From positions 62,001-126,000 of IMG/VR virus record IMGVR_UViG_3300017971_000194: a DNA stretch of 64,000 nucleotides. The stretch is one strand, 5' to 3'. The DNA comes from a virus. The notes under the pieces are model-generated. The model saw only the letters and a list, made by a program, of their open reading frames with translations, did no database searches and had not been told where the DNA came from. How positions within the stretch are numbered: position 1 is the stretch's first letter; each line of letters opens with the position of its first letter. Below are positions 4,713 through 30,800 of the stretch, piece after piece. Both the position numbers and the translations under genes were made by a program.

Positions 4713-7700
4713 CTATGTGACAGTGAACTGTCTCCAAGCACTATTCAGGTATATATGTACGGTGTTATCACTATCTCTAACTGCAATATCACCTTGCATT
4801 GCACTTGATGGTAAAGCACTCATACCTTCAACATGGATAGGTGCTCTGGTACTTGTCCCAAAAAAGTATCCACCATAACCATCTTCTGCCTCACCTAAAA
4901 TACCTGACACAACTAATGGTATTTTACTTACATTATCATTATATGTTGATGTCCAAACCAATAAATGGTCTCTCACACCAATACCACATGGAGTCAGATT
5001 CACACCTGATTTAATATATACAAGATTAGAACCATCTAAATTAGACATTCTAATACGATCAGAAACATACTCCGAAATAAATAATTTATTATGCCTAACA
5101 ACAAGATTACGAGCATCTATAGTTGTTAAAATATCTACAGGTGAAGAACCATCCAAATTGGCCTGCACTATCTTTGCAAGAGTTTCATCAGAATAATACA
5201 TCTTACCATTTGCTGGATCTACCGCTATCCCTTGTGGTTGCGAAAGACCTGAGACAAGAGTTTCAACAGAAGAACCATTAAGATTAGCTCTTCTCACTAC
5301 ATTCCCAGCAGATTCTGTCCAATACACCTTTCCCCCAACTAAATCAAGAGCTATATCACGAGGTTCATCTTGTCCTGTTATTATTTGTTCAGTATTTGAC
5401 CCATCAAGATCAGCTCTATGAATACCATTGGTAAACATATCAGACCAATAGACTTTTCCTCCAGGAACATCTAACTCTAAAGCATATGGTTGCTGCAAGC
5501 CACCAATTATTGTTTCAACATTCGTCCCATCTAGATTAGCTCTTTGAATGATATCTTGCCCAGAAGATCTACCATAACTGGCCCAATAGACTTTACCAGT
5601 AGTGTAATCGATATCAACACCCCAAGGAGCGAGCTGAGAACCTACTATCTGACTAGATGAATATGACCCAGTAGCACTTCCTTGGATTGGTATATTAGAA
5701 TCAGAACTCCGCACAATACCAGAATTGGTCACACCATTAGTTATTAGTGAACCTGTTATTTCAGTATTAGCATCTACAGACAATAAAGAACTGCCACCAT
5801 CAATAGTATTTGTCCTGACTATTGTTGCAGTCAAATCTTCAATGACTGCCGTTTCAGAATCAAGATAATCAGTATCAATTGAAGAAGATATTATTTGATG
5901 GAACTGTACTTGTGTATTTATTTCATTATAAATTTTCAGAATATCAGTAGTTGGACTACTTGTTAACACAGCTAATTTACTATTATTAAGATCTAGATCT
6001 AGTAATCCATTACCTGTTTGGATATATGAATTATCTAACACAATATTAAGAGGATTCACAGCACTAAATTTGAGAAGTGTCATATCACCACTATTAGCTA
6101 CCCAAACATATCCACGAGAAACAATCACATCAACAGGTGAATCCAAACCAGATGTTGTAGTATCTCTAACTTGTATGGAAGACGGATTGGAAATATCAAA
6201 CAACCTCAAAGTATCTATAGATTCATCAGGACATAACACTGCAACTATGTCTCTTTCAACATCAACTTCTGTTCCATCTGTAACAACAACGCTATCAAGA
6301 ACAGATACAGAATCTGGATCTGTGACATCAATTGTATACAAAACTTCTTTATACATCATAGTAGCTATTATAGAAACATCAGTTGTTGTCACTGACACAT
6401 AACCAGGACCAGGTGGATCATGTGGACCAAGAACATTAGCATCATCTCTATAAGTGAGTTCATCTGCCGTTGTCACATTAAAATCAAGAACCCATAGACT
6501 AGATCCCCAATTGAATAATTCTGTAAAGTATGATAGTACAACAACATAAACATAATCACCAATTACTTTTAATCTTTGGAAATACACATCTGAACCAGCA
6601 GGGTACCCATCTGTCAATGAGATACTATCTGGATTTGAAACATTGTAGACTTGAATTTCATTTGTTATAAGGACAAAAACATTGGTTCCAGATATATCTA
6701 TGTCTAGAAATTCACGACCTGCAACAACTTCAGAATCTCTCATAACAATAGCATTAGGATCTGATATATCATATACATAAAGGAACCCATCACCAGACAC
6801 ATTCCTGATAATATATGCAAAATTACCAGACACAGCCACTTTCACATTCGAACTATTAGGTAAAGAATCAGAACCTAATTCCTCAACAGCAGTAACCATG
6901 TATAGGTCTTTATCCAAACCCCATCTATCTTCACCACTGTTATAAAAGAAACCACCTGTATATCCTGGAGCGTCCACACTGATACCAGGATGAGTACCCC
7001 CAACTTCTCCTGAAGTGAGTCGTAACGGTATGAAATCAGAATCAGAAGGGATAGAACACACTTCCCAAGTTTCATTCTCTGGATTTAATCTGAAACCTGC
7101 TCTGTTGGTTTTCTCTACTCCTAGCTCACCAACCTCAAACCCTTGAGCTGGTTGATTTGCTGGATCTGTTTCTAGATATTTTTCTCCTGAAAATAACGAC
7201 CAAATCTTTCTATTCTGGTCATATCTGAAATATGAAGGGATGCTTGTTTTATCATCAACCAATACTGGGTTGAAATCACTGACACCTCGAACAAGACTAT
7301 TTGAATTTGTCTGAGATACACTAGTGCCCATTGTTATGGTAGCAAAGATAGCCCACAGTTTCAGGGGTGCTCCGGTCACAGCATTTGGATTGATTTCATC
7401 TCCTGGACGTGGAGGCACTGTAAAATGAACAGAACCATTCATATGGTCAATAATCATTTCCTGTTCATCAGAGATAGAGCTATCGATTATAGGTCTCGGT
7501 CCTATGATTGGTTTTGTGTAATCTGGATTTCCAGCACCATCATCTGGATAAAGAACCAGCATAAAATCCCAATCTGATTTGAGACCCAACACTCCTTTTG
7601 TGAAGATTGAATCAATCTTGGTACTCTTCCTATGAGGCATCAAGGGACGTAGACGTTTTGGAGATAGCAAATTTAAGTCAGCAAGATAAGGACTTGGGTT

Positions 7701-8342
7701 TTGAACCACATCAGGAGTAACCATAAAAAAGGTTTGTTCTCGACCTACTTCTACATTGGGTCCAGATACAGTGAAAAGTTGAACAGCATTTCTCTGAAGA
7801 ATCAGAACATCAATATCTGAACCAAATGTGAATGTAGGCTCTGAAAAAGTATCTACAGGAAATTGAAGTCCAGTATTAGGTGGATCTCCTGTAATAACTG
7901 CATCTGAGACGTAGAATCTACCTGTCAGAGGCACAAACATAACATCCCCAGCACTGACCCCCTGGTCAGGGAAATCAAACGTCCTGTGAATGAATCTGTA
8001 GTTATCAGCTACATACCCAACGTCACTACCATCAGTATCTGAATAGCTTACTTCTTTAATACCGTAAATAGTAGCAATACGTCCTTGAGCATTATCAGAA
8101 ATATTATCAGAAAAACTGAAAAGATTAACTTCTGGCTGAGTAGCGTTTGACTTCCTGATACCAGAAGTATACTTAAATTCACTAAGACCTGTATCTTCAA
8201 TCTTATCAAATGGAGTTATTTGATTGTAGGGACGATAGGCTCCTTCCAAGTCAATAGGAATATCAGAAGTGTGCTCCCGACCCAAAACTCTCTTGGCAAC
8301 AAGATTTAAGAGATCTTTGAAATGGTCGTTGAATGTTGCCAT
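4713..8342 (-). CDS. Tail spike/fibre with LVIVD and YWTD beta-propellers
   Basis: 1209 residues, ATG with upstream AAGGA. Residues 1 to about 430 match the N-terminal domain of the gene at 1-4702. About 482-807 holds seven LVIVD-type repeats with endings such as VYDISDPNA, VYNVSNPDS and LFDISNPSS, enough for a seven-bladed propeller. A short linker (about 810-890, VDANTEITGSLITNG) resembles trimeric fibre shafts. About 900-1142 has six YWTD repeats (VYWASY, VYWSDM, VYWTES, MYYSDE, LFISEY, LVWTST) with NLDGSN turns, one complete six-bladed propeller. The C-terminus ends GDIAVRDSDNTVHIYLNSAW, a common terminal motif of phage tail fibres. Predicted role: baseplate-attached adhesin. Propellers of these families mostly bind proteins or glycans; the ligand is unknown. 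Confidence 0.85.
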   Translation of the reverse strand: MATFNDHFKDLLNLVAKRVLGREHTSDIPIDLEGAYRPYNQITPFDKIEDTGLSEFKYTSGIRKSNATQPEVNLFSFSDNISDNAQGRIATIYGIKEVSYSDTDGSDVGYVADNYRFIHRTFDFPDQGVSAGDVMFVPLTGRFYVSDAVITGDPPNTGLQFPVDTFSEPTFTFGSDIDVLILQRNAVQLFTVSGPNVEVGREQTFFMVTPDVVQNPSPYLADLNLLSPKRLRPLMPHRKSTKIDSIFTKGVLGLKSDWDFMLVLYPDDGAGNPDYTKPIIGPRPIIDSSISDEQEMIIDHMNGSVHFTVPPRPGDEINPNAVTGAPLKLWAIFATITMGTSVSQTNSNSLVRGVSDFNPVLVDDKTSIPSYFRYDQNRKIWSLFSGEKYLETDPANQPAQGFEVGELGVEKTNRAGFRLNPENETWEVCSIPSDSDFIPLRLTSGEVGGTHPGISVDAPGYTGGFFYNSGEDRWGLDKDLYMVTAVEELGSDSLPNSSNVKVAVSGNFAYIIRNVSGDGFLYVYDISDPNAIVMRDSEVVAGREFLDIDISGTNVFVLITNEIQVYNVSNPDSISLTDGYPAGSDVYFQRLKVIGDYVYVVVLSYFTELFNWGSSLWVLDFNVTTADELTYRDDANVLGPHDPPGPGYVSVTTTDVSIIATMMYKEVLYTIDVTDPDSVSVLDSVVVTDGTEVDVERDIVAVLCPDESIDTLRLFDISNPSSIQVRDTTTSGLDSPVDVIVSRGYVWVANSGDMTLLKFSAVNPLNIVLDNSYIQTGNGLLDLDLNNSKLAVLTSSPTTDILKIYNEINTQVQFHQIISSSIDTDYLDSETAVIEDLTATIVRTNTIDGGSSLLSVDANTEITGSLITNGVTNSGIVRSSDSNIPIQGSATGSYSSSQIVGSQLAPWGVDIDYTTGKVYWASYGRSSGQDIIQRANLDGTNVETIIGGLQQPYALELDVPGGKVYWSDMFTNGIHRADLDGSNTEQIITGQDEPRDIALDLVGGKVYWTESAGNVVRRANLNGSSVETLVSGLSQPQGIAVDPANGKMYYSDETLAKIVQANLDGSSPVDILTTIDARNLVVRHNKLFISEYVSDRIRMSNLDGSNLVYIKSGVNLTPCGIGVRDHLLVWTSTYNDNVSKIPLVVSGILGEAEDGYGGYFFGTSTRAPIHVEGMSALPSSAMQGDIAVRDSDNTVHIYLNSAWRQFTVT
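4905..5640 (-). repeat. Six YWTD repeats (one beta-propeller)
   Basis: Six degenerate units of about 40 codons, each with a Y-W-(T/S)-D-like strand followed by a DLDGSN-like turn. The number matches the six blades of LDL-receptor-class YWTD propellers. They are repeats at protein level; the DNA copies are diverged. Confidence 0.85.
5915..6900 (-). repeat. Seven LVIVD-type propeller repeats
   Basis: Seven units of about 45 codons with the consensus hydrophobic strand, then (L/I)xVYDhSxPxxh. Seen directly in the translation at endings such as VYDISDPNA, TIDVTDPDS and LFDISNPSS; the third and last units are more diverged. Confidence 0.7.
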
Positions 8343-8354
8343 GCCTAAACATCC

Positions 8355-11300
8355 TTATGTATACGGTAGCCATTCGATAGTTACCACGTCATTCCAGTAA
8401 CCATAACCATCTTTTATTAAACCTATCCTAATAGCAATGGGATACTCTCCCAAACCGTTATCTTGAGTGTAATAATCTGTAGTGTAAGTATATATGCTCA
8501 TACCATCCATACTTGTCTTTTGTATCTTATGGTGATTATAATTGGTCCAGTATATCTTACGAGAATCCGTATCCAAAGCCAAACCTTTCCCTTTAGTCAA
8601 TCCTCTGGGTGTTATAGAATCTTCCCTATTAGAACCATCAAGGTCACATCTATTGATTTGACTCAGACCTTGCCAATAAATCTTCCCTTCTTCTAGATCA
8701 AGAGCTATTCCATTTGGACTCAAAGCATCTTCCACCACGATATCTACAAAAGAACCATCCAAATCAGCTCGTCTAATATAACTCTCTGCTGTATCAGACC
8801 AATACATATATCCAGCATCCACATCTAATGCTATACCATAAGGATTAGCACCAATATTTGATACAAGAGTTTCTACCATTGAGCCATCTAAATTTGCTCG
8901 ATAGATATGATTTGGAGGTCCAAAACTGATCCAATACATTTTACCAGCATTGATATCCAAAGCAATACTTGTAGGCAATCCTGACCCAGTATCTACTAAA
9001 TCTTCTACATTACTACCATCTAGGTCTGCTTTTCTAATCTTATTTGCGCCTGGACTAGTGAAGTACATTTTATCAGCATTAGTATCCAGAGCAATACCCC
9101 AAGCATCTGATGCTGTGTAAATATCTTCAACATTCGATCCATCAAGGTCAGATCGTTGTATTTTTGAAGTTACTGTGTCAGTCCAATACATCTTACTAGC
9201 ATTTATATCAAGAGCTATGGCATTTGAATCTGTAAGACCATCTACCAGATTCTCAATTTGGTTAGACTGAACCAGACATCCATAGTAATCTTTTGTCTTA
9301 TCAATGTTAGGATCACCATTACTACGACCTAGATCCAACCAACCTGTCACACCAGGTATTTTCACCAAAACAACTACACCACCCCCTACTGATCCACCCT
9401 CACCAGATATAGTGTCACCTTCATGATCTGTAGGTAAATCACCAGTGAAAGGCCCAGTCACTCCAAAATCTTTTTGATGTATACCTTTAATTCGGAATCT
9501 ACCTACATTAGTAGGTCCTCCAGTGTCAAAAAGTCTTGTATACCATCGAATTGTATCAGCAGGGTCCCCACCTGCTAAACCACTATAATCAAACTGACCA
9601 GCACTTGGTAAAGCCCAACCTGCGGTGTAATCATTTTCTGGCACTACTAATTGCCCAGATGCAACTTGAAGTTCTTTTTGTGTGAATGTTGAAAGATCTG
9701 CATCTGAATCAAATTGCACTGGAAATCTCCATTCCCGCATAACACCATCTACTGAAGGCCAATCGGGACTCACACTTATTTCAGTACCATTGACATAAGT
9801 AGCAGTATAACTCTCAAAAGAAGATTCCAACATCAGAGCCATATCCCTCACAGATTCGGACCCTGATGTCACTGAAATAATACTTTCAATATTAGAACCA
9901 TCCAAGTCACTCCATTTAATGACATTGGAAGTCACATCACTCCAATATAACTTACCACCATCAACATCAATTTCAATATTGTAAGCCATTACTGATGGTG
10001 TTATTGTGACATCATTTGAACCATCCAAATCACACCGCATAATTCTACCTGAAGGACCAATAACTGTAAAATAAATATATCCATGTATTAAGTCAAAAGC
10101 AAAATCAGGTATCCATTCAGGACTGGTTACAGTATACAAAACTTCAATACTAGAACCATCAGACATATTAGCTCTAGAGATGGTATTTAATCCTGGGCTT
10201 CCTGTAGTATAGTATATTTTACCTGCATCGATATCAAGAAACACACAATCGACATCATCATAATTAATAAGACTTTCTTTACTAGAACCATCTGACATAT
10301 TTGCTCGTTTTATCCAATGGTCTCCTCTGTCTGAGTAATAAATTTTACCAGCATCTACATCAAGTGCTATTTTATATACTTGCTGTCCCGACCATACTGT
10401 CTCAAAACCACTACCATCAAAATTCATTCTCTTTACTTCTTGGTAATTAAAATCAGCCCAGTAAATTTTACCATTAACAGTATCTAAAGCTATACCATTT
10501 GGATTCTGTCCCCATGAATACACGGTCTCGACAAATGCTCCATCAAGATTAGATCTTTGAATTTGGTCATCCTGACGGTCAGTCCAATATAATTTTGGCC
10601 TTTTAGCAATATTTATTATTCTACCAGTATCTGCTGAAGTAAAACTAGCTGTAGCTGAAGTAAAGGTATTTGACCCTGAAACAACACCATCATCCCCAAA
10701 ATTTGGAGCACTACGATCATAAGGAATTATTGGATACTTGATGAACTCTAAGAGATCTGTACCAAGATCATATCTATACTGCTCTGTGTAAAATTCTTCT
10801 TTCATTTTACTAGATATTTCTTGCCCATAAACGTCTACCAAAAGGATACCAACTGGATTTGAGCTGTAATCTTGCATTGTGGTGAAAGGAGAACGTACTA
10901 TATGTGATACTCTAGACAAATAGGAACTACCACCCTTTCTTACTACTAAAGATTCTTGACTTATGAATGTAGCTCGATGACTAGCAGAAGTATCTATTGC
11001 TGGTCCATCTCCTTTACTCAAACTAACAGAAGAAAGATCCAAATGGTAAGGTATGTCTTTTACAACAACTCCGAAATCACTAAAGTCATAACTCAGAGGT
11101 GACTTATCACTTAAATACTCCGAAGACACTTTTGGATCAGCCACATCACTGGTTAGGTATGAATTATTCCAAAAATCTGGAGTGGTGATAAAAGTCTGGT
11201 CTACATAAAAACCATTATCAGGACCATAATGTGCTATTCCTGAAAGACGTACTACATTAGCACCTTCTATCTGCACTTGTGGTGTCACTGTATCAGGCAA

Positions 11301-12518
11301 TGTGCCAGGGAAATTAGGGTATACCTTGACATTCGAGGCGTCTACCTCATTCAAAACTTGGTAAGTACCATTGTTCCCCTGACTAGAACCTGTAATGGTA
11401 AGTATCTTGCCACGGTCTGTAGAATCTCCAGCAAAGATTGCTGTACCAGCAGCCAGATTGTTCGGAGTTGTGAGGTCAGCATTTGCTACTACTGACGTTG
11501 TTTCTGTACCCAAAGGATATGCAGCATTGATTAATACCTCACCACCAGCTTCATTTAAAGTTGGAGCTGCTGGTGAAGTGTCAGAATAAATATCCAATTT
11601 CCCATGTGACCCATACAGATTTGAAGCACTGTAATTAGCTCCAGCCACATTTGTATATGACTTGAAATGGAACAATTTAAGAGATCCAAAATCTACATCA
11701 GTACCAATATCAAATGGAGTAGCCGTCAAATCCAATGTGGCTGTGTATCGAGCTAATTGGAACTGAAGATAATTGAAATCATATGTAGTATAAGGTACTC
11801 CAGCATCATATTCCTTTAGCATTGGAAGACGATACGTTAGTGAAAATATATCTGTGCCAGGGTCCCAATGATTTTCAGAAGCTGTGTAATCAAGTTGTTG
11901 GTATCCCACAGCAGGGTTTCGTCTACGAAGCTCATCAAAATTAGAAGCTAGATTCAGCTTTCCAACTTCTATTGTATCCCCACTATTATCAAACACACCC
12001 TTTGTAGCATACAATAGCACAAGGTATCCTCTATCAGCAGGGTACAGTGTACCTGTAATTACACAGCCTGTGACTGTATCAGGAATCAAACAATGAGTCT
12101 CTGCTATCCAATCCCCTGGGGTGCCTCCTTGATTCCCACCACCCCACGATGTATGACCATGATTTGCTGTATCACAAGTGAAACCACCTGTCTTAGAGTA
12201 TGTATCCAAATCACCCCAATCAGGCACTCCCGAATTTGGAACTGATCGACTTTCACCAATAGCATTAGGGTAATCTGGAACAAGATCAGAAATTTCATCA
12301 AACACGATTTCAGCATTCACACCATCATATTTTGCGTAAACATCCTGCACCGAAATAGCAGAAGCTGGATGAGCCCCATCAGGGTCATTGACGTGAGCTG
12401 ACAAAGCTGCTTGAAAATCAATCAAATGAGCAAAATCAAGAGAAGATACTGAAATACTATCTTGAGCAGCCTTACCACTACCTATGGCAAGAGTACCTGG
12501 ATCTACTTTAGTTGGCAT
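8355..12518 (-). CDS. Tail fibre adhesin with two YWTD propellers (paralogue A)
   Basis: 1387 residues, ATG with GAGGT upstream. The start (MPTKVDPGTLAIG, then FQAALSAHVNDP) is nearly the same as in the gene at 12531-16673, and the two align over most of their length. The first third is beta-rich. About residues 366-416 carry an uninterrupted GNNGTYQV module. A first set of six YWTD repeats (about 640-895) interrupts a second copy of that module: TFTSATASFTSADTGRIINI lies before it and YTATYVNGTEISVSPDWP after it. A second set of six (about 1090-1343) sits between DYYGCL and FTSDYYTQDNG-type sequence (YYTQDNGLGEYPIAIRIG). Blades carry NLDGSN-like turns. Probable distal receptor-binding fibre; no enzymatic motif was seen. 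Twelve bases separate it from the genes on each side. Confidence 0.85.
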   Translation of the reverse strand: MPTKVDPGTLAIGSGKAAQDSISVSSLDFAHLIDFQAALSAHVNDPDGAHPASAISVQDVYAKYDGVNAEIVFDEISDLVPDYPNAIGESRSVPNSGVPDWGDLDTYSKTGGFTCDTANHGHTSWGGGNQGGTPGDWIAETHCLIPDTVTGCVITGTLYPADRGYLVLLYATKGVFDNSGDTIEVGKLNLASNFDELRRRNPAVGYQQLDYTASENHWDPGTDIFSLTYRLPMLKEYDAGVPYTTYDFNYLQFQLARYTATLDLTATPFDIGTDVDFGSLKLFHFKSYTNVAGANYSASNLYGSHGKLDIYSDTSPAAPTLNEAGGEVLINAAYPLGTETTSVVANADLTTPNNLAAGTAIFAGDSTDRGKILTITGSSQGNNGTYQVLNEVDASNVKVYPNFPGTLPDTVTPQVQIEGANVVRLSGIAHYGPDNGFYVDQTFITTPDFWNNSYLTSDVADPKVSSEYLSDKSPLSYDFSDFGVVVKDIPYHLDLSSVSLSKGDGPAIDTSASHRATFISQESLVVRKGGSSYLSRVSHIVRSPFTTMQDYSSNPVGILLVDVYGQEISSKMKEEFYTEQYRYDLGTDLLEFIKYPIIPYDRSAPNFGDDGVVSGSNTFTSATASFTSADTGRIINIAKRPKLYWTDRQDDQIQRSNLDGAFVETVYSWGQNPNGIALDTVNGKIYWADFNYQEVKRMNFDGSGFETVWSGQQVYKIALDVDAGKIYYSDRGDHWIKRANMSDGSSKESLINYDDVDCVFLDIDAGKIYYTTGSPGLNTISRANMSDGSSIEVLYTVTSPEWIPDFAFDLIHGYIYFTVIGPSGRIMRCDLDGSNDVTITPSVMAYNIEIDVDGGKLYWSDVTSNVIKWSDLDGSNIESIISVTSGSESVRDMALMLESSFESYTATYVNGTEISVSPDWPSVDGVMREWRFPVQFDSDADLSTFTQKELQVASGQLVVPENDYTAGWALPSAGQFDYSGLAGGDPADTIRWYTRLFDTGGPTNVGRFRIKGIHQKDFGVTGPFTGDLPTDHEGDTISGEGGSVGGGVVVLVKIPGVTGWLDLGRSNGDPNIDKTKDYYGCLVQSNQIENLVDGLTDSNAIALDINASKMYWTDTVTSKIQRSDLDGSNVEDIYTASDAWGIALDTNADKMYFTSPGANKIRKADLDGSNVEDLVDTGSGLPTSIALDINAGKMYWISFGPPNHIYRANLDGSMVETLVSNIGANPYGIALDVDAGYMYWSDTAESYIRRADLDGSFVDIVVEDALSPNGIALDLEEGKIYWQGLSQINRCDLDGSNREDSITPRGLTKGKGLALDTDSRKIYWTNYNHHKIQKTSMDGMSIYTYTTDYYTQDNGLGEYPIAIRIGLIKDGYGYWNDVVTIEWLPYT
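8490..9250 (-). repeat. Six YWTD repeats, second propeller of paralogue A
   Basis: Six units with the strands MYWTD, MYFTS, MYWIS, MYWSD, IYWQG and IYWTN, each followed by a DLDGSN-like turn. Complete six-bladed set. Confidence 0.85.
9830..10598 (-). repeat. Six YWTD repeats, first propeller of paralogue A
   Basis: Six units with the strands LYWTD, IYWAD, IYYSD, IYYTT, IYFTV and LYWSD. Complete six-bladed set, apparently inserted in a loop of a small beta module. Confidence 0.85.
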
Positions 12519-12530
12519 CGAAATACCTCA

Positions 12531-15500
12531 TTATGGTAACCATTCAATGGATTCAACCTCATGGTTTTCACCCGTACCATCTTTGATGAAACCTATCCTA
12601 ATAGCAATAGGGCATCCCCCATCACCATTATCTTGAGTGTAGAATTCAGTGTTATAACTATAAATACCTGAACCATCCATGTTGGCTCTTCGGATCTTAC
12701 TACTGGAATCCTCTGCCCAATACATAATATTATCAGAAACATCTAAAACTATAGCAGTAGGGTTCTGACTCCCTAGACCTATAACATCTTCAATATCAGA
12801 ACCATCTAGGTTAGCACGTTTAACATAATCTGTGCCTGTAGTATCAACCCAATATATTTTCCCTCCAGCAGCATCAACAGCAATACCAGTAGGGTCAATC
12901 CCATAATCTACAAGAACCTCCACCGAACTACCATCAAGATTGGCTCGTAGGATTTTCTTTGTGCCAAGAATATCAAACCAATACACTTTCTCGGCATTTG
13001 TATCTAGAGACAACCCACCTACAGTCCCTATAATGATAATATCTTCAATATCAGAGCCATCCAGATTGGATCGTTTTATCCCACCATTACCCCCATAATA
13101 CAACTTACCTGCATCTATATCTAGAGCAAGACATCTGGGAAAAGACAACCCTGAGATTATTGTCTCAATATTTGATCCATCTATATTTGAACGATAGATG
13201 AAACCAGTGAAATCAACCCAATAGAGTTTTCCACCATTTGCATCAATGGCAATACCTCGAAGAGATCCAAGTCCTGTATGAATGGTTTCAATGTTACTAC
13301 CATCAAAATCAGATCGTTTAATATCCCCACTACTACTATCAGCCCAATATATCTTTTCAGAATCAGTATCAAGAGCTATACCATATGTGGTACCTACCCC
13401 TGTTTGTATATCCTGAGTGTAAAAAGCAAATGTTAAACAACCATAGTAATCTTGAGTCTTATCAGAATTTGGATCTCCATCATAACGACCCAAATCAAGC
13501 CACCCTGTCACACCAGGAACTTTCATCAAAACCACAGCCCCACCTGAATGGTCTGCTACCAAATCCCCTGTGTAAACACCAGCAGCAAAAGCAGAATCAG
13601 AAATACCTTTGATACGAATTTTACCACTATTTGCTGGAGATTGTGTGTCAATAAGTCGAGTATACCATCGAATTGTATTAGCAACATCAGCAGCAAACAA
13701 CGTAGCGTAATTTTGCTGACCATTACTAGGGTAATACCCAGCAGTGAAATTAGTCTGTGGGTAAACAAGTTTACCATCCAAAACTTGAAGCTCGTTCTGG
13801 ATATGTGATCCTAAAGCAAGATCAGAATCCCAGACTGTTGGGAAGTACCAAGACACAGAAGTTTCTATATGAGTAGGCCAATCAGGTTCCACTGTAATTT
13901 GAGTAGAACTAACATATGTAGCTTTGTAACTACCATCGTACACAGGATTATCATAATATGCTATATGAGGCATATTCGAAATCCCTGAATTCAAAGTCAA
14001 AAGGTAGCTACCATCGAAATCTGTTTGCCTTAAATTGTTGGTGCTCCCGTCAAACCAATAAATCTTCCTTTCTTCAACATTTATTGCCATACCTCTTGGC
14101 CATGACAATCCTGTAAGGACATTTACTGCACTTGAACCATCAAAATTCGCTTTCCGTATAGAGTTACCTGCTGTCTCAGTCCAGTACATCTTCCCTTCAG
14201 TATAATCAAAAGCAATATTATTAGGACCTGAAGCACCTGTGATAACATCTTCAACATCAGAACCATCAAAATTGGCTCGTTGTATTTTTGAAGTCCCTTG
14301 ATCAGACCAGTATACTTTTTGGAGATTGTGATTTAAAGCGAGGCTTTGAAGATTACCTACCCCCGTTAAAACAACATCTTCAACATCAGACCCATCTAAA
14401 TTAGATCGTTGTATTTTATCAGCATCCGAATCTGCCCAGTACATTTTCCCAACAGCTAAATCTAAAGCAACAGCAAACACCTTAGTGCCAAGACCAGTCA
14501 CCAAATCTTCAATGCTTGAACCATCAAAATTAGCTCGTTGTACTTTCTGATCCGTTGCATTGGCCCAATATATTTTCCCACCATTAATATCGAGTGCTAA
14601 ACCAGCAGCATCTCCAATACCAGTGACAACATCCTCAACACTCGAACCATCAATGTTGGACCTTTGTATTTTGTTTGCTGTACTATCAGACCAATAAAGT
14701 TTCACACTAGAAATCAATATTGTGCGCCCAGTATCACCACTGGTGAAATTTGCAGTAGCAGAAGTAAGTGTGTTGGTAGAAGAAACCACCCCATCATTAC
14801 CAATATTGGGAGTAGCTCTAGTATAAGGAACTAAAGGGTATCTCTCATGTTCAAACAAATCTGTGTTTTCATCTTGAGCCACATCAAAATGATACCTGAA
14901 TAACTCTGTAGTGAAATCTTCGATCTGTGATCTACCAGTTATAATCTGTTCATAAGCATTTGTCAGAATTTTATTACCAGTTTGAGTGATTGCATCGAGT
15001 TCTGTCAAAGCAAAAGGTGTGCGTATTGTATTTTTTACTTTTGCATCGTCACTCACACCACCACCTGATGATCCGCTGATGAGAACCCCTATGTATTCTG
15101 CATCATCACTCTGCCCTGGACCATTTCCCTTACTCAAATCCCACCCATCAGTAGGATTGATAGCATCATTATTATCTAACAAATGATATGGGATTTCTCT
15201 AGTCCCAGCACCAAAATCTGTAAGGTCATATTTCAAAGGAGATTTATCACTAAGATATCCAGAAGAAACCTTACTATCTGATTCTACCCCAGTAAGATAT
15301 GAGAGATTCCATAGTCCAGAAACTGCTCCTGCAATACTTGACTTCAACCAAAATCCATTATCAGAACCATAGTGATATATACCAGACAATCTGAAAATAT
15401 TTGGAGCAGAAATACTAAAATTCAATGTGGTTTCTGGAAGAGACCCCGGAAAATCAGGATATACCTTGACATGAGTAGTCGTATCTTCGACTAATATTTG

Positions 15501-16673
15501 GTAGTCCCCATTGTTACCATTCACTGATCCTGTGACTGTAAGTATCTTCCCTCTATCAGTAGCATCTCCTGCAAAGACTGCTGAAGCACTTGTGAAATCA
15601 TTTGGAGATGCCAAATCGCAGTTATAACTACCACCAGGAGGTGTTTCAGTACCAACTGGAAAAGTAGGTTCAACTATATAATCAGTCCCAGGAGTCCCAA
15701 TAACAGGCAGTCCAGGATCGACTTCACTATAGATATCATACTTACCATGAGACCCATACAGATTTGAAGCACTATAGTCTGCTGTAGCAACATTACTGTA
15801 GGTCTTGAAATGAAACAGTTTCAAAGAACCAAAATCTACATCAACCCCAATATTGAATGGTGATAATGTGAGATCAATAGATACACTGAAATAAGCCAAC
15901 TGAAATTGCAGATAATTGAAATCATATGGCTCATAAGGTGTTCCTGCACTGTACTCCTTAAGAGCTGGGAGTCGATATGTTAGTGTGAAAATATCAGGCC
16001 CAGAATCATGTGTATCTACACCCACATAATTAGGTTGTTGATAATTGGGAACACGTCTATAAGACTCACTGAAATTAGCTTCTAGATCAAGTTCCCCAAC
16101 TTCAATTGTATTCACAGTATTATCAAAGACACCATTCTTTGCATATAGCAATACTAAATACCCTCTGTCAGCAGGGTACAAAATACCAGAAAGATCAAAG
16201 GTAGTGATAGAACTTTGAAGTAAACAATGAGTCTCTACTAACCAATTACCAGGAGTACCCCCCTGATTCCCACCACTCCATGAAGCATGAGCATGATTTG
16301 CTGTAGTACAAGTAAAACCACCTGATTGAGTGGTTCCAATTCTATCGTAAGTATCTTCCAATGTACCCCAATAAGGCACACCACTATTTGGGACTCCCTC
16401 TTGCTCTTGTCCCAAAGTATTGATCAGATCTGGCATGAGATCTGATAATTCATTCAAAGACCCTTCGACATGGGTCCAATCGAATTTACCATAGGTATCC
16501 TGAGTTGAAATAGCTGTGGCTGGATGAGCACCTATTGGATCATTGAGATGCCCTGATAGAGCAGCCTGGAAATCCACTACATGAGCAAAGTCAAGGGAAG
16601 ATACAGACACAGAATCCTGTGCTGCTTTACCATTCCCAATGGCTAATGTGCCTGGGTCTACTTTAGTCGGCAT
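12531..16673 (-). CDS. Tail fibre adhesin with two YWTD propellers (paralogue B)
   Basis: 1380 residues, paralogue of 8355-12518 with the same domain order: N-terminal attachment region (MPTKVDPGTLAIGNGKAAQD), beta-rich region, uninterrupted GNNGDYQI module, first YWTD propeller (about 658-905) inside a second copy of that module, a spacer domain, second propeller (about 1090-1335) and a C-terminal segment ending near VESIEWLP. Twelve YWTD strands are present (for example LYWSD, IYWAN, MYWAD, VYWSD, MYWTE, IYWFD for the first set). Its ATG overlaps the stop of the upstream gene by one base (TAATG), so the two are translationally linked. Probable adhesin; carrying both paralogues may broaden the receptors recognised, which is inference. 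Confidence 0.85.
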   Translation of the reverse strand: MPTKVDPGTLAIGNGKAAQDSVSVSSLDFAHVVDFQAALSGHLNDPIGAHPATAISTQDTYGKFDWTHVEGSLNELSDLMPDLINTLGQEQEGVPNSGVPYWGTLEDTYDRIGTTQSGGFTCTTANHAHASWSGGNQGGTPGNWLVETHCLLQSSITTFDLSGILYPADRGYLVLLYAKNGVFDNTVNTIEVGELDLEANFSESYRRVPNYQQPNYVGVDTHDSGPDIFTLTYRLPALKEYSAGTPYEPYDFNYLQFQLAYFSVSIDLTLSPFNIGVDVDFGSLKLFHFKTYSNVATADYSASNLYGSHGKYDIYSEVDPGLPVIGTPGTDYIVEPTFPVGTETPPGGSYNCDLASPNDFTSASAVFAGDATDRGKILTVTGSVNGNNGDYQILVEDTTTHVKVYPDFPGSLPETTLNFSISAPNIFRLSGIYHYGSDNGFWLKSSIAGAVSGLWNLSYLTGVESDSKVSSGYLSDKSPLKYDLTDFGAGTREIPYHLLDNNDAINPTDGWDLSKGNGPGQSDDAEYIGVLISGSSGGGVSDDAKVKNTIRTPFALTELDAITQTGNKILTNAYEQIITGRSQIEDFTTELFRYHFDVAQDENTDLFEHERYPLVPYTRATPNIGNDGVVSSTNTLTSATANFTSGDTGRTILISSVKLYWSDSTANKIQRSNIDGSSVEDVVTGIGDAAGLALDINGGKIYWANATDQKVQRANFDGSSIEDLVTGLGTKVFAVALDLAVGKMYWADSDADKIQRSNLDGSDVEDVVLTGVGNLQSLALNHNLQKVYWSDQGTSKIQRANFDGSDVEDVITGASGPNNIAFDYTEGKMYWTETAGNSIRKANFDGSSAVNVLTGLSWPRGMAINVEERKIYWFDGSTNNLRQTDFDGSYLLTLNSGISNMPHIAYYDNPVYDGSYKATYVSSTQITVEPDWPTHIETSVSWYFPTVWDSDLALGSHIQNELQVLDGKLVYPQTNFTAGYYPSNGQQNYATLFAADVANTIRWYTRLIDTQSPANSGKIRIKGISDSAFAAGVYTGDLVADHSGGAVVLMKVPGVTGWLDLGRYDGDPNSDKTQDYYGCLTFAFYTQDIQTGVGTTYGIALDTDSEKIYWADSSSGDIKRSDFDGSNIETIHTGLGSLRGIAIDANGGKLYWVDFTGFIYRSNIDGSNIETIISGLSFPRCLALDIDAGKLYYGGNGGIKRSNLDGSDIEDIIIIGTVGGLSLDTNAEKVYWFDILGTKKILRANLDGSSVEVLVDYGIDPTGIAVDAAGGKIYWVDTTGTDYVKRANLDGSDIEDVIGLGSQNPTAIVLDVSDNIMYWAEDSSSKIRRANMDGSGIYSYNTEFYTQDNGDGGCPIAIRIGFIKDGTGENHEVESIEWLP
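12650..13415 (-). repeat. Six YWTD repeats, second propeller of paralogue B
   Basis: Six units with strands IYWAD, LYWVD, LYYGG, VYWFD, IYWVD and MYWAE. The peptide FYTQD occurs on both sides of the set. Confidence 0.85.
13950..14704 (-). repeat. Six YWTD repeats, first propeller of paralogue B
   Basis: Six units with strands LYWSD, IYWAN, MYWAD, VYWSD, MYWTE and IYWFD and turns such as NFDGSS and NLDGSD. Best-conserved set in the window. Confidence 0.85.
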
Positions 16674-19249
16674 TAGACACTCCGTCTATTCAGTAACAGA
16701 TTCCCCTTGAGTCGGTAAACAGCAGCACAACTAGTATCATCAGCAGGAGTATCTACGAATCTGACATTGTTCTCATTGTCATTTTCAGCCCATCGGATAA
16801 AGACAATCATTACCAATGTGCCTTTGTTACCGAAATCATAGTCATCTAAAAGTTCTGCTATAATTGGAAAGAACACTTTATGCCGCTGTGGGAAAGAAAG
16901 GTTCTTACCAAATGCTGCGGGTCGATATTCTGATGTTGGTACTTCTGGGTAAAAAGCCCGTTGTTCAGGATCAACATCAGTCACAGCAGTCCGTTGTAAT
17001 TCTGCTGAAGCCATCGGAACAAGAGGTATATTCTGAGAAACTCTTAAAAATCCCGAAGCAGCATCAAAGTCATCAGTAAAGGTGTCAAGAGGAGAGTCTA
17101 ATTCATGTTCCCCATTGAATACATATGGAGCTGCTCCATTGATATATACAGGGATGTGGACATGAGGAACTTCATATGGATAAGTAGCTCCAAATGATCC
17201 CGTCCCACCAGTCAAAGCGTATATATATGGGCTCACATACAAGGTACGATACAATAAACTATTCGGCAGCATACTATCTTTCACAGGCTGTAATGCTCTG
17301 GATTGATAAAAAACTGTTTGATAGTACCCTACTGTATTTGGAATAGGTCTAAGAGCTTTATAGACCACTCTGACTAAAGCATCTGGATCTGAAAGTGGAT
17401 CAACAGATGTTGAAATCTCCCTATCTGGATCATTTGCTGTAAAAGTAAATGAATGACCAACAGGTGTGCCCAATGGATCTTCTGTTACACTTGTCACAGA
17501 ACCAACACGATCTGGAAGGACTATAGTGTTCACATCCTTAGCATATACATCTAGTGTCTTATCTGTTGTCTCATACAAAACCTGAACTTCACGGTTATTT
17601 TTCACCACTTCAAGATTTACAAAGTCATTGAAGTCAGCGGGACGACTACCAGCGGGGTCATCTTCCAAAGTAAATGGTCCACCTGCACCAGAATTCCAAG
17701 TATCTCCAAAATCATTGGATGGAGTTGCAGTCAAACCATTCCCAGGTGGGTAGGATATTTCAACTTCGAGCCATAGATCAGGACTATTACCTGTCCACAC
17801 CCCATCCGCAAGAGTCAATGTGACAATATTTGAACCAATACCCTTTATCTCACTGAAAAATGCCTTGACCTTACCAGTAGTTGTATTTGGATGATCAAAA
17901 TAGGCAGATCGAATATCGGTAATGACCGTATTTGCAGGGCTCATTGATGCAAGGTCAAACCCTGAACCCTCATCAAATGGATATGGATTGAAGTTACCAA
18001 GATTGATTGTAACAACCTCGTCACTCACCCAGGTTGCTCCTGTAGGGGTTTTTATGACTATGGGATGCTCTACTATAGCTCTATCAGAGAAACGCCTTCT
18101 GACAGCATCCTGCTCCCCTATATTCATACCTCCCAAACCACCTGTACCAGCAGGACCAATCTCATCAGCATGTAGAACAGTAGTCCCTACCATCCCATAG
18201 GTGTAACCAGGAACACTATTAGTGTTCTGTTCTACCTGAGATAAAGTATTATCAAGCAAAGCTGAAAAGCTTGTTTCCAAGATTTCATCAAGGTCCCAAC
18301 CCACAAGAGATGTACCCTGTCTCATATCAAGGACATCACCATTTGAAATCTCATCAGAAAACAAATCATCTGGACGGTCACTTGTACCAGCACTTATCAG
18401 GACACCACCATTATGATTAGTAGACTGTGAGAAAGCAGTTGTATTCCGTCTAAACACAGCAGCAATGGGGATAGCATAACTATACCCATCCACAGTCCCA
18501 AGAGCTGTCTGAGACGCTGTATCACCAGCACCGGCTCTCCATAGACCATAATCACCAGCAGTAGCTCCCATGTTAGTAAAAGTATAGGTGCCTACAGGAG
18601 ATCCTTGTGTGCCCTGAGCCTCAACATTTGGATCGTTCATACCCATTGGGAAACTACTAATATTGATCCCATCTACAACTCTGATTCGATATTGAATCTG
18701 AACTCTCTTAGAAGTTTCAGCTCCAGGAGGAGTCTGCAAAATATCATCTGTAAAGTTCAAAGTAGCGTCATGAGCTGGATCAATACCTACATTACCATGT
18801 CTATAGACACGACCACCAGCAGATTTATTGGTTGTGTCTGGACTAGCACTCAACAAAGCCCTCCAGACCTCTAAAAACACGAAGTCTGTTCTCCAACCTG
18901 TAGCTGGAGGTGCTGACAATGAAAGTATATTTTCTTTTGCTGTATCAGTGCCAGTATACTCGACAACTACTTTCCAACCATTCACCAAAGCTACTGGTTT
19001 ATTGACCAACTTGAATTCATTAGCTGTAGAGCTACTGTATTCAAAATCAATATTCCCACCAAGGAAATCACCCTTTAACCAACCACTGGGAACTGATACC
19101 CTACGAAGAGCAGCTTCAAAATTTGCATCTTGAAGTAAGTTTTGCTCCACATCCAAGATTGGCTTTGAGCTTTGGTAAACTATTGTTTCCCAGGCTCTTT
19201 CTTCAGGATCTAGATAACCCGAAACAGAACCATCAAAATTCTTATCCAT
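16673..19249 (-). CDS. Large baseplate/fibre-attachment structural protein
   Basis: 858 residues, ATG with an AAGGA-like site. The N-terminus (ETIVYQSSKPILDVEQNLLQ) resembles the start of phage proteins that link fibres to the baseplate, in which a short segment of this kind precedes a long beta-rich body. The rest is beta-rich with no enzymatic motif. A CxxC or catalytic signature is not evident. It lies between a small structural gene and the two YWTD adhesins and overlaps the start of the second by one base, so it is a good candidate for the adaptor that holds them. This role is inferred from position and from the N-terminal pattern only; the family assignment is not secure. Confidence 0.6.
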   Translation of the reverse strand: MDKNFDGSVSGYLDPEERAWETIVYQSSKPILDVEQNLLQDANFEAALRRVSVPSGWLKGDFLGGNIDFEYSSSTANEFKLVNKPVALVNGWKVVVEYTGTDTAKENILSLSAPPATGWRTDFVFLEVWRALLSASPDTTNKSAGGRVYRHGNVGIDPAHDATLNFTDDILQTPPGAETSKRVQIQYRIRVVDGINISSFPMGMNDPNVEAQGTQGSPVGTYTFTNMGATAGDYGLWRAGAGDTASQTALGTVDGYSYAIPIAAVFRRNTTAFSQSTNHNGGVLISAGTSDRPDDLFSDEISNGDVLDMRQGTSLVGWDLDEILETSFSALLDNTLSQVEQNTNSVPGYTYGMVGTTVLHADEIGPAGTGGLGGMNIGEQDAVRRRFSDRAIVEHPIVIKTPTGATWVSDEVVTINLGNFNPYPFDEGSGFDLASMSPANTVITDIRSAYFDHPNTTTGKVKAFFSEIKGIGSNIVTLTLADGVWTGNSPDLWLEVEISYPPGNGLTATPSNDFGDTWNSGAGGPFTLEDDPAGSRPADFNDFVNLEVVKNNREVQVLYETTDKTLDVYAKDVNTIVLPDRVGSVTSVTEDPLGTPVGHSFTFTANDPDREISTSVDPLSDPDALVRVVYKALRPIPNTVGYYQTVFYQSRALQPVKDSMLPNSLLYRTLYVSPYIYALTGGTGSFGATYPYEVPHVHIPVYINGAAPYVFNGEHELDSPLDTFTDDFDAASGFLRVSQNIPLVPMASAELQRTAVTDVDPEQRAFYPEVPTSEYRPAAFGKNLSFPQRHKVFFPIIAELLDDYDFGNKGTLVMIVFIRWAENDNENNVRFVDTPADDTSCAAVYRLKGNLLLNRRSV

Positions 19250-27063: not shown

Positions 27064-27864
27064 TTAAAATTGGTACGAAACATCTTCCCCAATCACACTC
27101 TCTTCTTCCTTTGCTCCTAGTCGGTCTTTATCTTTGAGACCAAACCAGTTCTTCCTTACATCATCATAATGATAATCGCTCAATTCAAACCGATACTCAT
27201 CAGAGACCCCATCAACGGGATCTGTAGTGTCAAAATCATCAGAAAATATATATCTGATCCGAAACAGTGTGTGTGCAGGTTTTATGATCCTAAGTATCAA
27301 GTTAATATTTGCATCAAGAGTCACAAAGTCTTGAGGGATCTCTTCACCCTCTATTTCAAAATTCACACCAAACGTGAACTGGTCACTGATATCATATCCT
27401 TCAGCACCAGCTTCCACTTCTAAGTAATTCTCCACAATAGTCACAACACGATCAGTAAATAACTGGATACCATCTTGAATAGATTGAGTGGTAGAACCTT
27501 GAAAATAGATCTTGATGATAGCTAATAGAAACTCTTTGAATTCATGGTCATTAAATTCAGTAGTGGGAAGTTGACCATTCAAGAAAATCAAGTACCCAAT
27601 GATTTGATATAGAAACTCTGAACGTGTATTTATAAAATTACCATCTGTTGAAATGTCATCCAATGTAATTTTGATTTTCGCTAGCTCTATTGCAAAAGCT
27701 CGAAGTTCCAAAGCATAATTTGTAGATGGAGTCTCCGACATGTAATATGAAGGAAGCATAGCTAACAGATTTGATAAAATCTGGTCTGCCTCAGCTTTCA
27801 ATCTGGTACGATACTGCTTCCCATCATCTACCAATGGATATGGACTTTGGAGCATATTTGTCAT
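27064..27864 (-). CDS. Baseplate wedge protein, gpI/gp7-like
   Basis: 266 residues; the ATG overlaps the stop of the J-like gene by one base (TAATG). The N-terminal half is helical (LLAMLPSYY, then ELRAFAIELAKIKITLDD), continues into GYLIFLNGQLPTTEF and EFLLAIIKIYFQGSTT, and the C-terminal half contains IIKPAHTLFRIRYIF. This order, a short wedge protein directly after baseplate J and directly before the first fibre, is that of P2 gpI and its many relatives. In those systems it links wedge to fibre at the baseplate periphery. The match is by pattern and position. Confidence 0.65.
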   Translation of the reverse strand: MTNMLQSPYPLVDDGKQYRTRLKAEADQILSNLLAMLPSYYMSETPSTNYALELRAFAIELAKIKITLDDISTDGNFINTRSEFLYQIIGYLIFLNGQLPTTEFNDHEFKEFLLAIIKIYFQGSTTQSIQDGIQLFTDRVVTIVENYLEVEAGAEGYDISDQFTFGVNFEIEGEEIPQDFVTLDANINLILRIIKPAHTLFRIRYIFSDDFDTTDPVDGVSDEYRFELSDYHYDDVRKNWFGLKDKDRLGAKEEESVIGEDVSYQF

Positions 27865-30800
27865 TATAATGATTCCTCACTGTAGATAATATTGAAGTTA
27901 CCTACCGTAATAGATTCCAGCTTATTGGCTGTCAAATCTCTTGCTCCAGAGTCACCACTCACAACATATGAGCAAGTGTATGTATGGTCTGTTGGTAAGT
28001 CATCTTCAGGTATGGAGGTCAAAGAAACAACCACTCTATTACCTGTTCGGTTCTTTCTTTCTTCCTCAATCTCATCTGCATCAGTATACCCTTCACTGAT
28101 AAGAGTGGCATCGTCTGAATACCCTGTGATTGAAGCCCCATCCTTACCAATTATAAAGGATTGATCGGGAGAAGTTGTCACATTAGCTAAAGTAGTCACC
28201 AACTCCATTGGCTGATCATCTTGGAAAACACCTCTATGCCGTGAAGTTGCTCCACCACCATCTGTTGTTGATGCATTCAGAGCTGTGATAAGAATATAAG
28301 CTTTATTTGTACCAGCATGCAGGGAAGAAAGTTCTACATAGTTACTCAGCAATGGATTCCTGAGAATCTGAGAACCGTCAGCCCAAACCATTTGAGAAAA
28401 TGGAACGATCACATAATCAACTCCTGAAACAGCCTCCTCAACATGGATCACATCACTTTGCCTGATACCACCACCAATTGGACGACTATTAATTTCTTGA
28501 GCAACCCTGGTTCTTATCTTTGAATCTGTTTGTGGTCGATCCACACCGTACTCAAGAATAACTGTGTTTTCAATATTGATGGAATTCTCTATAGCCTGTT
28601 TTACCAAAGCATCTGCTGTAGTATGTTTCTTCACAGATATGTTTTCTTGCACCTGACGAATCAGGTCATTCACTACATAACGAACCTCAAAATTCTCGTC
28701 ATGTTGATAGTCAACACTTACTTCCTGACCATTAGCAATAGTTCCAGAAGACACCCTCACAATAGTTGTTGGCTCAGTTGAAGACCCTGGTGAAATCAAA
28801 TAATCTGGACTCGAAGATTCAGGACCATCATACTCAATAGTTCTGGCTACGTTGAATACCCGAATAGATGTGATGTCCACACCAATTGAATCTAACGGCT
28901 CATGTCTAGTACCAACCAAGATATGAGATTCATCATTCACTGAAATAACAGCACCTGATGGAAGTCCACCATATGGGATAACCTTAACATAATCATTTGC
29001 CTTGGTACTCTCACCATAAAGAAGAGGGTCATCTAACTTATACAATTCATACCCATTTGTAGCATCCAAAGTCCCTGATACCTCACCCACAACACTCACA
29101 ATTCTTCTCACAGGTTGTCGAGTCGGTGTGAAGGTATTTGTAGACTGGAATCGATAATCACCAACAATCACATCATCTACATCGAATGTTGGTTGGCTGA
29201 TACCATTATCCAATTGGATGGTTCTATAATCCTGGATGGTTACTCCAGCCAAATCAAAGTCAGTCCCTTTAGTGATATTTCTGAAACCCCATCCTTTTGA
29301 AGGGTCATCAAGCATTTCAGATATTGGATTATCTTCAGACAAATTGCTATCAGTAGATCTGAAAACAAGGTTCACAGCATCAATAATATCAAAAGCCTGA
29401 TTCTCTTTTATATCAAACAGGAATGCAAATGTATCTGTAACTTCCTGTTCATTTAGACCTTTGATCCAAATATCAACCTTGCCACCAATATGCTTGTCTC
29501 TAACATCATCCCAATCACGCATCATCAGATCATTGTCAGCTTCGATTATCAAAGCCTCTTGCACACCAGGAGTTTTGTTAGCAGTAGCCAAATAACCACC
29601 TGTTGTACCAGAGTCCACAGACACAAGAGCTAACATAGATCGTTCTGCAAGAGAACTATTACTCTCAATATCAGAACCCCATTGGGTCGGCTCAAGGTTG
29701 ATCACAGAGAAGCCAGAAGCTCCTGATACTACCTTGTTGATCTGGTTAGCGGGACGGTTGCCATCTGAACCTGAATCTAGAGCCCTGATATTAGCAACAA
29801 TTTCCCAGCGTCTTCTTGAAGCATTATAATAGGAATCTACATTATCAATAGCCATAGTGACTTGACTTGTCACTTCATATGAGAAAGCTGGGATACCTAA
29901 TTCCTCATCAGGAGTAGTTGCTATAATAGCACCACGTTCAACCACCAGGTCTCTAGTGGGTTTAGTGGTAAGGTAAAAAACAGCCTGTCCTATAGATCTA
30001 ATAGCCCCTTGTCTAGTGACGTAATAGTCACCAGCTTTTTTATCAAATGCATCATCAATGATGATCTGAACATCCTCATCACGATCCAAAAGAAGAGCAC
30101 TCTTCAAAGCTCTCTTATATGGTGAGACACTCACATCATCACTGATACCATCCCCATCAGCATCATCAAGAGCCATCAATGTTAAGAAGCTCTGTGACCT
30201 ATGAATGAAGTCTGCTATGAAACTCACACGTTCTATCTCAGTAGCAGGTGGATCTAAGTGTATATCTCTAGTAGATGAACCAGGTATCAAGCTAACAGAA
30301 GGATCATGCTTCTGGATTTGCTCTATCTCAGAAAGGATAATGTCCTGACTTGTCCTGGGGGTCATATCCTTGATAGTAGTGTCAATGATCAGAGGTAACC
30401 CTACCAATTCAGAACTATACTTACTCTCTACATACTCACGATATCTCGAATCATAACCAACTGCCGTAATAACATAATACAGAGGTTGATCATCAGGGAT
30501 ATCGAGGAACTGATCATTATTTATTGTGCCATCTGCTTCTTCAGCCAACCGGTCATGGTCAAAATAGAAATGCTGGGCAGATTTCTTACCAGTGAGGTCA
30601 AGAGAAAGAATCTGGTCTGGAATAGCATCTGCCATATCAACAACAGAATCTGAAATTTCTCGTACCAAGACACCATCTTCATCTTCTTCTTGCACCGTTA
30701 TCCTGAGGAAATTATTTTCATGTGTGAAGGAAATTTCCTCATCATGAGTATCTACATCCTCAGTCTCAAGATAACTATCTGTGACTAACTCATCATTAAG

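Follow-up and report, generated by a model that had tools for sequence, protein, structure and literature searches.

Predicted YWTD propellers in three neighbouring fibre-type genes of a jumbo-size phage

Propeller domains are already known from phage adhesins and from the edge of the baseplate. The portion of PMC4901313 available to us describes them in PhiKZ gp131C, phi11 Gp45 and PRD1 P2, and the portion of PMC5259590 available to us describes the Kelch-propeller proteins CBB_550, CBB_552 and CBB_554 of the 356-kb jumbo myophage vB_PcaM_CBB, of which CBB_552 is found in the virion. Here, we analyze a 64,000-nucleotide stretch of viral DNA (hereafter the window; positions 62,001 to 126,000 of the 186,349-base IMG/VR record IMGVR_UViG_3300017971_000194), in which three neighbouring fibre-type genes encode proteins of 1209, 1387 and 1380 residues that carry propeller repeats of the YWTD family, most familiar from the LDL receptor of humans. 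What appears to be new is the YWTD family in such fibres, not propellers in phage adhesins as such; in the openly licensed PMC literature, we found no report of YWTD propellers in phage fibres among the titles and abstract openings of the matches listed. We propose that the three proteins are most likely baseplate-anchored receptor-binding fibres that carry six-bladed YWTD propellers, a reading to which we assign a probability of about 0.68.

The three genes lie on the minus strand at window positions 4713..8342 (1209 residues), 8355..12518 (1387 residues) and 12531..16673 (1380 residues). All three proteins match PF00058 (Ldl_recept_b, the YWTD repeat), with whole-protein expectation values (E) of 5.3e-18, 5.7e-30 and 1.2e-41 and scores of 65.7, 104 and 141.3 bits, respectively, against a cut-off of 21. 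Thirty repeat units can be recognized, grouped as five sets of six. The single set of the 1209-residue protein occupies residues 906-1156 (4875..5627, minus strand; units start at residues 917, 963, 1005, 1047, 1088 and 1130). In the 1387-residue protein, propeller A spans residues 637-895 (9834..10610, minus strand; units at 642, 684, 725, 767, 814 and 856) and propeller B residues 1089-1342 (8493..9254, minus strand; units at 1109, 1150, 1193, 1237, 1279 and 1321). In the 1380-residue protein, propeller A spans residues 652-905 (13959..14720, minus strand; units at 658, 700, 743, 786, 828 and 870) and propeller B residues 1086-1352 (12618..13418, minus strand; units at 1107, 1149, 1190, 1231, 1272 and 1316). 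A simple motif scan finds 26 of the 30 units, and four degenerate ones (870 and 1231 in the 1380-residue protein, 1088 and 1130 in the 1209-residue protein) were assigned by eye; a further motif match at residue 1159 of the 1209-residue protein was discarded because it is not a repeat. When each unit was scored against a profile that excluded its own propeller and compared with 200 shuffles, 29 of the 30 outscored every shuffle. The exception is unit 1130 of the 1209-residue protein, for which 51 of 200 shuffles score equally well, so that the sixth blade of this propeller rests on position alone. Sequence matches in the PDB point the same way, the strongest being LRP2 (E 1.4e-114, nine stretches) and LRP6 (4.8e-53), with LDLR and nidogen also matched. 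The assignment to the YWTD family and the count of thirty units in five sets of six, both made in a first-pass annotation of the window, thus hold, with unit 1130 as the single weak point. No EGF-like, Ldl_recept_a or Kelch family is detected in a Pfam scan of the three proteins at E 0.1, and no PHROG profile, tail-fibre families included, matches them at E 0.01.

To model the fold, we supplied AlphaFold2 with residues 600-1380 of the 1380-residue protein aligned with its paralogue (two sequences). The model contains two confident regions, built of blocks with predicted local distance difference test (pLDDT) scores mostly between 74 and 93 and each comprising 24 strands as counted from the strand list, within an overall mean pLDDT of 62.9 and a predicted template modelling score of 0.41. 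The modelled propeller A superposes on the LRP4 propeller 3v64_C with Z 37.1 and a root-mean-square deviation (rmsd) of 1.5 Å over 253 residues, and also matches LRP6 (3sob_B, Z 36.2), nidogen (1npe_A, Z 34.9) and LDLR (1ijq_A, Z 32.7). The modelled propeller B matches 7b96_A (Z 30.4, rmsd 2.2, 247 residues aligned), and its single-domain structural matches, among those listed, are NHL and designed Pizza propellers. In our reading of the strand order, the blade that closes the ring would combine the first three strands and the last one in A, but the first strand and the last three in B; this difference in ring closure would explain why an aligner that preserves chain order prefers different targets for the two.

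The 1387- and 1380-residue proteins are tandem paralogues, with 47.8% identity over 1426 columns, and their scaffolds are better conserved than the propellers they carry. Within the scaffold, the N-terminal part is 57.8% identical, the stretch of 31 residues leading up to propeller A 71.0%, the linker 55.2% and the C-terminus 65.0%. Propellers A (36.9%) and B (41.1%) are the least conserved of the six regions compared. Mean blade identity is 0.39 between propeller A of the 1380-residue protein and propeller B of its paralogue, versus 0.33 between the former and its positional counterpart; blade-by-blade orthology gave no clear register signal, and we do not use it as proof of exchange.

A related scaffold is found in LR745208.1, an uncultured 485-kb phage, whose 1156-residue homologue of the 1380-residue protein has no match to any Pfam family at E 0.01 and hence none to PF00058. 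The two proteins have in common their N-terminus (the first approximately 100 residues; 35.5-36.7% over 109-110 columns) and the C-terminal scaffold (27-29% over 185-194 columns). The genomic context is also shared: in our phage an 858-residue protein (16673..19249, minus strand) adjoins the 1380-residue gene, its homologue (30.2% over 825 columns, E 1.3e-80) adjoins the 1156-residue protein, and the homologues of the baseplate wedge, 858-residue and 1380-residue proteins follow in the same order on one strand of LR745208.1. When the propellers were removed by script, the C-terminal match of the 1380-residue protein lengthened to 240 columns (53.5 bits), against 194 columns (45.8 bits) with them in place, and spanned the site of propeller B (slot B). 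The boundaries of the empty sites are approximate, since the site of propeller A (slot A) falls just beyond the matched stretches and the global alignment of the central part is poor. Each of the two paralogues also has, N-terminal to propeller A, an intact small beta domain. Only 2 of 500 shuffles (1380 residues) and 1 of 500 (1387 residues) match this domain as well as the joined flanks of propeller A do, although plain blastp of the intact domain against the joined flanks of the 1380-residue protein reaches only E 0.007. We take this as moderate support for the view that propeller A interrupts a copy of the small beta domain.

The genes upstream suggest where such proteins might be attached. 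A baseplate wedge protein (27864..31292, minus strand) matches phrog_6 at E 3.3e-21, and two further proteins have weaker matches, to phrog_43/2669 (baseplate; E 0.0014) and phrog_430 (hub/lysozyme; E 4.9e-4). A contractile tail can be inferred; the fibre-type genes that the first-pass annotation had named as such are thus located near baseplate genes. Homologues of the wedge are found in LR745208.1 (34.3% over 98%), Tunturiibacter phage Tunturi_5 (25.2% over 72%) and Bacillus phage G (23.4% over 27%). The same region is present in a second assembly, IMGVR_UViG_3300017963_000188, with 2 mismatches in 19,127 bases, both in the N-terminal parts of the 1209- and 1387-residue proteins and none in the propellers; as this contig measures 358,038 bases, the genome is of jumbo size. 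Searches for close relatives with the 1380-residue protein and with an alignment of the two paralogues matched only this contig.

The 1209-residue protein, judged from its sequence, follows another design than the 1380/1387-residue pair. Its N-terminal region (residues 7-477; 6912..8324, minus strand) is homologous to a 698-residue protein encoded downstream (L014:605-2701; 35.3% over 496 columns, E 1.9e-75). The 698-residue protein also matches, at 35.6% over 477 columns (E 3.7e-64), the N-terminus of a 1580-residue fibre-type protein with a right-handed beta helix (PF13229; 2..4741, minus strand, open at the window edge). Both pairs combine a conserved N-terminal part with a variable C-terminus, so that the shared N-terminal part precedes LVIVD-like repeats plus a YWTD propeller in one protein, a beta helix in another and a stretch lacking any Pfam match in the third. 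The LVIVD-like repeats (residues ~502-820; 5883..6839, minus strand) directly precede the YWTD propeller, itself followed by a short C-terminal part, and may form another propeller, perhaps the seventh of this phage and of a different family, with an unsettled number of blades. Their match to LVIVD (PF08309) reaches 15.4 bits, under the cut-off of 20.2; four of seven candidate repeats outscore all 200 shuffles and the other three are equalled by 17, 37 and 177; weak PDB matches are to designed Pizza propellers (best E 0.0013).

Baseplate proximity, shared N-termini with exchanged C-termini, a scaffold homologue without PF00058 and the precedents in other phages lead us to favor receptor-binding fibres. 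We propose that the three gene products would form long fibres or adhesins in the virion, attached to the baseplate via their conserved N-terminal parts, as gene order and the shared N-termini suggest, and that they would present six-bladed YWTD propellers outward at an exposed surface. The propellers, of a family widespread in bacteria, would be modules inserted into a fibre scaffold, with A probably breaking up the small beta domain and B probably seated in a loop near the C-terminus. At the host surface, the target of their faces would most likely be a peptide or glycan, bound through the sum of several weak contacts, and the propellers would in this way contribute to host range. If so, the domains that phages seem to carry on their tails include the LDL-receptor-type propeller, a classic platform for binding proteins and peptides, and protein or peptide ligands become candidates besides sugars. 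Related scaffolds with and without propellers also offer a natural comparison for the role of the propellers in host binding.

Several observations weigh against this proposal. The two assemblies are identical in the propellers, so no rapid propeller change is seen, and the lower identity of the repeats between the paralogues may reflect plain relaxed constraint. The empty-site match spans slot B alone and begins just past slot A; removing the propellers from the 1387-residue protein barely moves its score (43.5 to 44.3 bits), and blastp finds no corresponding match between its intact small domain and joined flanks (E 4.8). The scaffold between the modelled propellers has pLDDT below 50, so that the model does not show exposure or insertion geometry. 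The six-bladed rings that the first-pass annotation expected are predicted for both propellers of the 1380-residue protein and for these only. For the last 740 residues of the 1209-residue protein, AlphaFold2 prediction from the sequence alone gave a mean pLDDT of just 31.8, and we make no claim of fold for its YWTD or LVIVD-like part.

The propellers could instead be structural spacers or docking rings inside a fibre network, making no contact with the host. YWTD propellers elsewhere pack against neighbouring modules, and here they appear within scaffold domains rather than at a free tip. Yet the LR745208.1 homologue has no PF00058 matches, and the propellers vary more between the paralogues than any other region compared, and we consider a spacer role unlikely. 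Binding to habitat particles, mucus or extracellular polymer in place of a specific host receptor would draw on the acidity of the propellers (isoelectric point (pI) 4.2-4.6), several of which per fibre set could give avidity for polymers present in abundance. This acidity is ordinary, however: the fibre scaffolds have a pI of 4.3-4.6, and the net charge per 100 residues, -4.6 to -7.3 in this phage's propellers, has a median of -5.7 in bacterial YWTD segments. We accordingly rejected the acidic surface as a clue to the ligand, and regard polymer binding as quite improbable. Enzymatic activity against host polysaccharide, of the gluconolactonase or lyase type, is less plausible still, and we give it very little credence. 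Pfam does report SGL, Vgb_lyase and DUF5050, with scores that in the 1387- and 1380-residue proteins exceed the cut-off for some of these families, and the propeller fold is known in phage endosialidases, as noted in the available portion of PMC4901313. But PF00058 is the top-scoring family in all three proteins, the other matches look like cross-matches among propeller families, and in structure propeller A comes closest to propellers of receptor or matrix proteins.

The receptor-binding reading can be extended to a model in which bacterial-type propellers act as plug-in cassettes, inserted or replaced in surface-loop slots independently of the conserved scaffolds. Closure of slot A like that of LRP/LDLR and of slot B like that of NHL would fit separate insertion events. 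The first-pass annotation had likewise suggested that the propellers are interchangeable receptor-binding domains, and this idea stands in part: the homologue without PF00058, the divergence of propellers within conserved scaffolds and the sharing of N-termini between different C-termini speak for it at the level of sequence, and the identical propellers of the two assemblies speak against it. With origins that the tree described below leaves unresolved, we view cassette swapping as a reasonable but unproven extension, and a rather doubtful one. Were it true, host recognition could be exchanged without altering attachment to the virion.

YWTD repeats are rare in viruses, as the first-pass annotation had supposed. 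A strict DNA motif for one repeat occurs in 17 stretches in 14 of 2.9 million viral contigs, a count that may leave out the window's own record and that is a lower bound because the motif catches just 10 of the 36 units of this phage; among 50,697 phage records, tblastn with three propeller queries found none at E 0.01, and one of these queries matched 20 plasmid records as a positive control. Thirteen of the 14 contigs have PF00058 matches at E 0.001, 12 of them above cut-off, and one (G009) looks like bacterial rather than phage sequence. Six others (G003, G004, G006, G008, G011 and G014) encode large proteins with 4 to 13 detected YWTD units, and G003 and G008 each have two YWTD genes close together. 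At least two other contig groups, G003/G004/G008/G011 with a common gene block and G006/G014, place long YWTD proteins near virion genes: G011 encodes a portal protein and G006 a tail sheath and tube, and the YWTD gene of G006/G014 follows shortly after the tail tube. The first-pass claim to know of no comparable system does not survive these neighbouring YWTD proteins and the description of other propeller families in jumbo-phage proteins. Propellers of any kind are no rarity among phage virion proteins: a search of viral predicted structures gave 125 matches at E 0.001, and the best 50 include propeller-like proteins (6-18% identity), among them tail fibre, adhesin, virion or structural proteins of Caulobacter phage Percy, Agrobacterium phage Atu_ph07, Pseudomonas phage Noxifer and Pectobacterium phage CBB, matches that concern the fold and not the YWTD family.

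G011 (L037) comes from metagenome 3300017963, as does the 358-kb contig, and G003 (L033) from 3300018080, a data set credited to the same contributor. The portion of PMC7449369 available to us credits David Valentine with the source metagenome number and with 3300018080, the source of G003. With a distinct YWTD contig group in 3300017963 and 3300018080, the domain, rare as it is, occurs in two lineages whose data sets are related.

In bacteria the strict motif is common, with at least 114 stretches; the loci among the 80 listed, which are no census, often belong to Poribacteria, Planctomycetota, Gemmatimonadota and Latescibacterota. In the bacterial set, chosen by motif from these 80 of at least 114, 42 of 72 YWTD segments have six detected units (the 72 may include one from the viral-collection contig L038), and the top three bacterial matches of each phage propeller are 38-51% identical to it. 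Each of the six propellers of this phage has some bacterial propeller closer to it than its siblings. The best match for four of the six is one Poribacteria sequence, and the other two winners also recur; the sibling comparison looks like a hub effect of consensus-like sequences, and we did not adopt separate acquisition of each propeller. A tree of 50 six-unit segments (the phage's own six and the 44 of 84 others with exactly six detected units and no X) has 5 of 47 inner branches starred, and none of five tested groupings of the phage's propellers is rejected (p 0.54-0.72). Neither the tree nor these tests resolve the direction or number of transfers.

The sixth propeller is encoded approximately 133 kb away on the 358-kb contig, outside the window, by one further YWTD gene of 726 residues and six units (L012:7985-10165), all of which outscore their shuffles in the hold-out test. 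The first-pass observation was right and somewhat understated; beyond it lie this distant gene, the LVIVD-like repeats and the signs of propeller insertion in other domains. Beside the distant gene, L012:10165-14761 (G001 ~154-159 kb, also outside the window) encodes two radical SAM proteins (PF04055, E 5.4e-21 and 2.8e-14), with SPASM matches slightly below cut-off. An asparagine-synthase-like protein (PF00733, E 4.3e-38) is encoded there too, and genes of fibre-like appearance alternate with these; the radical SAM and asparagine-synthase-like proteins might modify fibres or make a small peptide. We considered a diversity-generating retroelement as a source of propeller variation, but neither of the phage's two contigs, which may both be fragments, has a reverse transcriptase match (PF00078); the same search was positive in 3 of 14 control genomes. 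Within the window, a gene for a 1658-residue protein with a chitobiase/beta-hexosaminidase C-terminal-type domain (22077-27053; PF13290, E 2.3e-11) lies between the wedge and fibre-type genes, and a NUDIX hydrolase-like gene (19959-20516; phrog_1198, E 7.4e-8) lies between the baseplate and fibre-type genes. A gene annotated as NUDIX is likewise located close to the tail genes of Tunturi_5. Two neighbouring Tunturi_5 proteins near the baseplate genes are annotated as 'regulator of chromosome condensation'; at E 0.01, Pfam finds in them Ig-like He_PIG and two sub-cut-off matches and no RCC1, and we do not use the pair as a propeller parallel.

Compared with known systems, the phage proteins share their sequence family and predicted fold with the propellers of LRP4, LRP6, LDLR and nidogen, to which propeller A aligns in order. 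They differ from these in having no EGF-like or LDL-A partner and in being set in fibre-type scaffolds, and propeller B is unlike LRP/LDLR in its predicted ring closure, with NHL and Pizza propellers as its listed single-domain matches. Bacterial YWTD propellers, from Poribacteria, Gemmatimonadota, Latescibacterota, Planctomycetota and others, are the best sequence matches in the set compared, but are not in phage fibre genes. The G003, G004, G006, G008, G011 and G014 contigs encode YWTD proteins too, with 3-10 PF00058 matches per YWTD contig compared with 18 in this phage. Among described phage adhesins, the seven-bladed PhiKZ gp131C and the five-bladed phi11 Gp45 and PRD1 P2, as portrayed in the text available to us, resemble the six-bladed domains predicted here in being propellers. 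A parallel in genome organization is CBB, which likewise combines a jumbo genome with several propeller proteins of near-neighbouring gene numbers; its propellers belong to the Kelch family rather than YWTD, and insertion into scaffolds with empty sites does not figure in the part of its description available to us.

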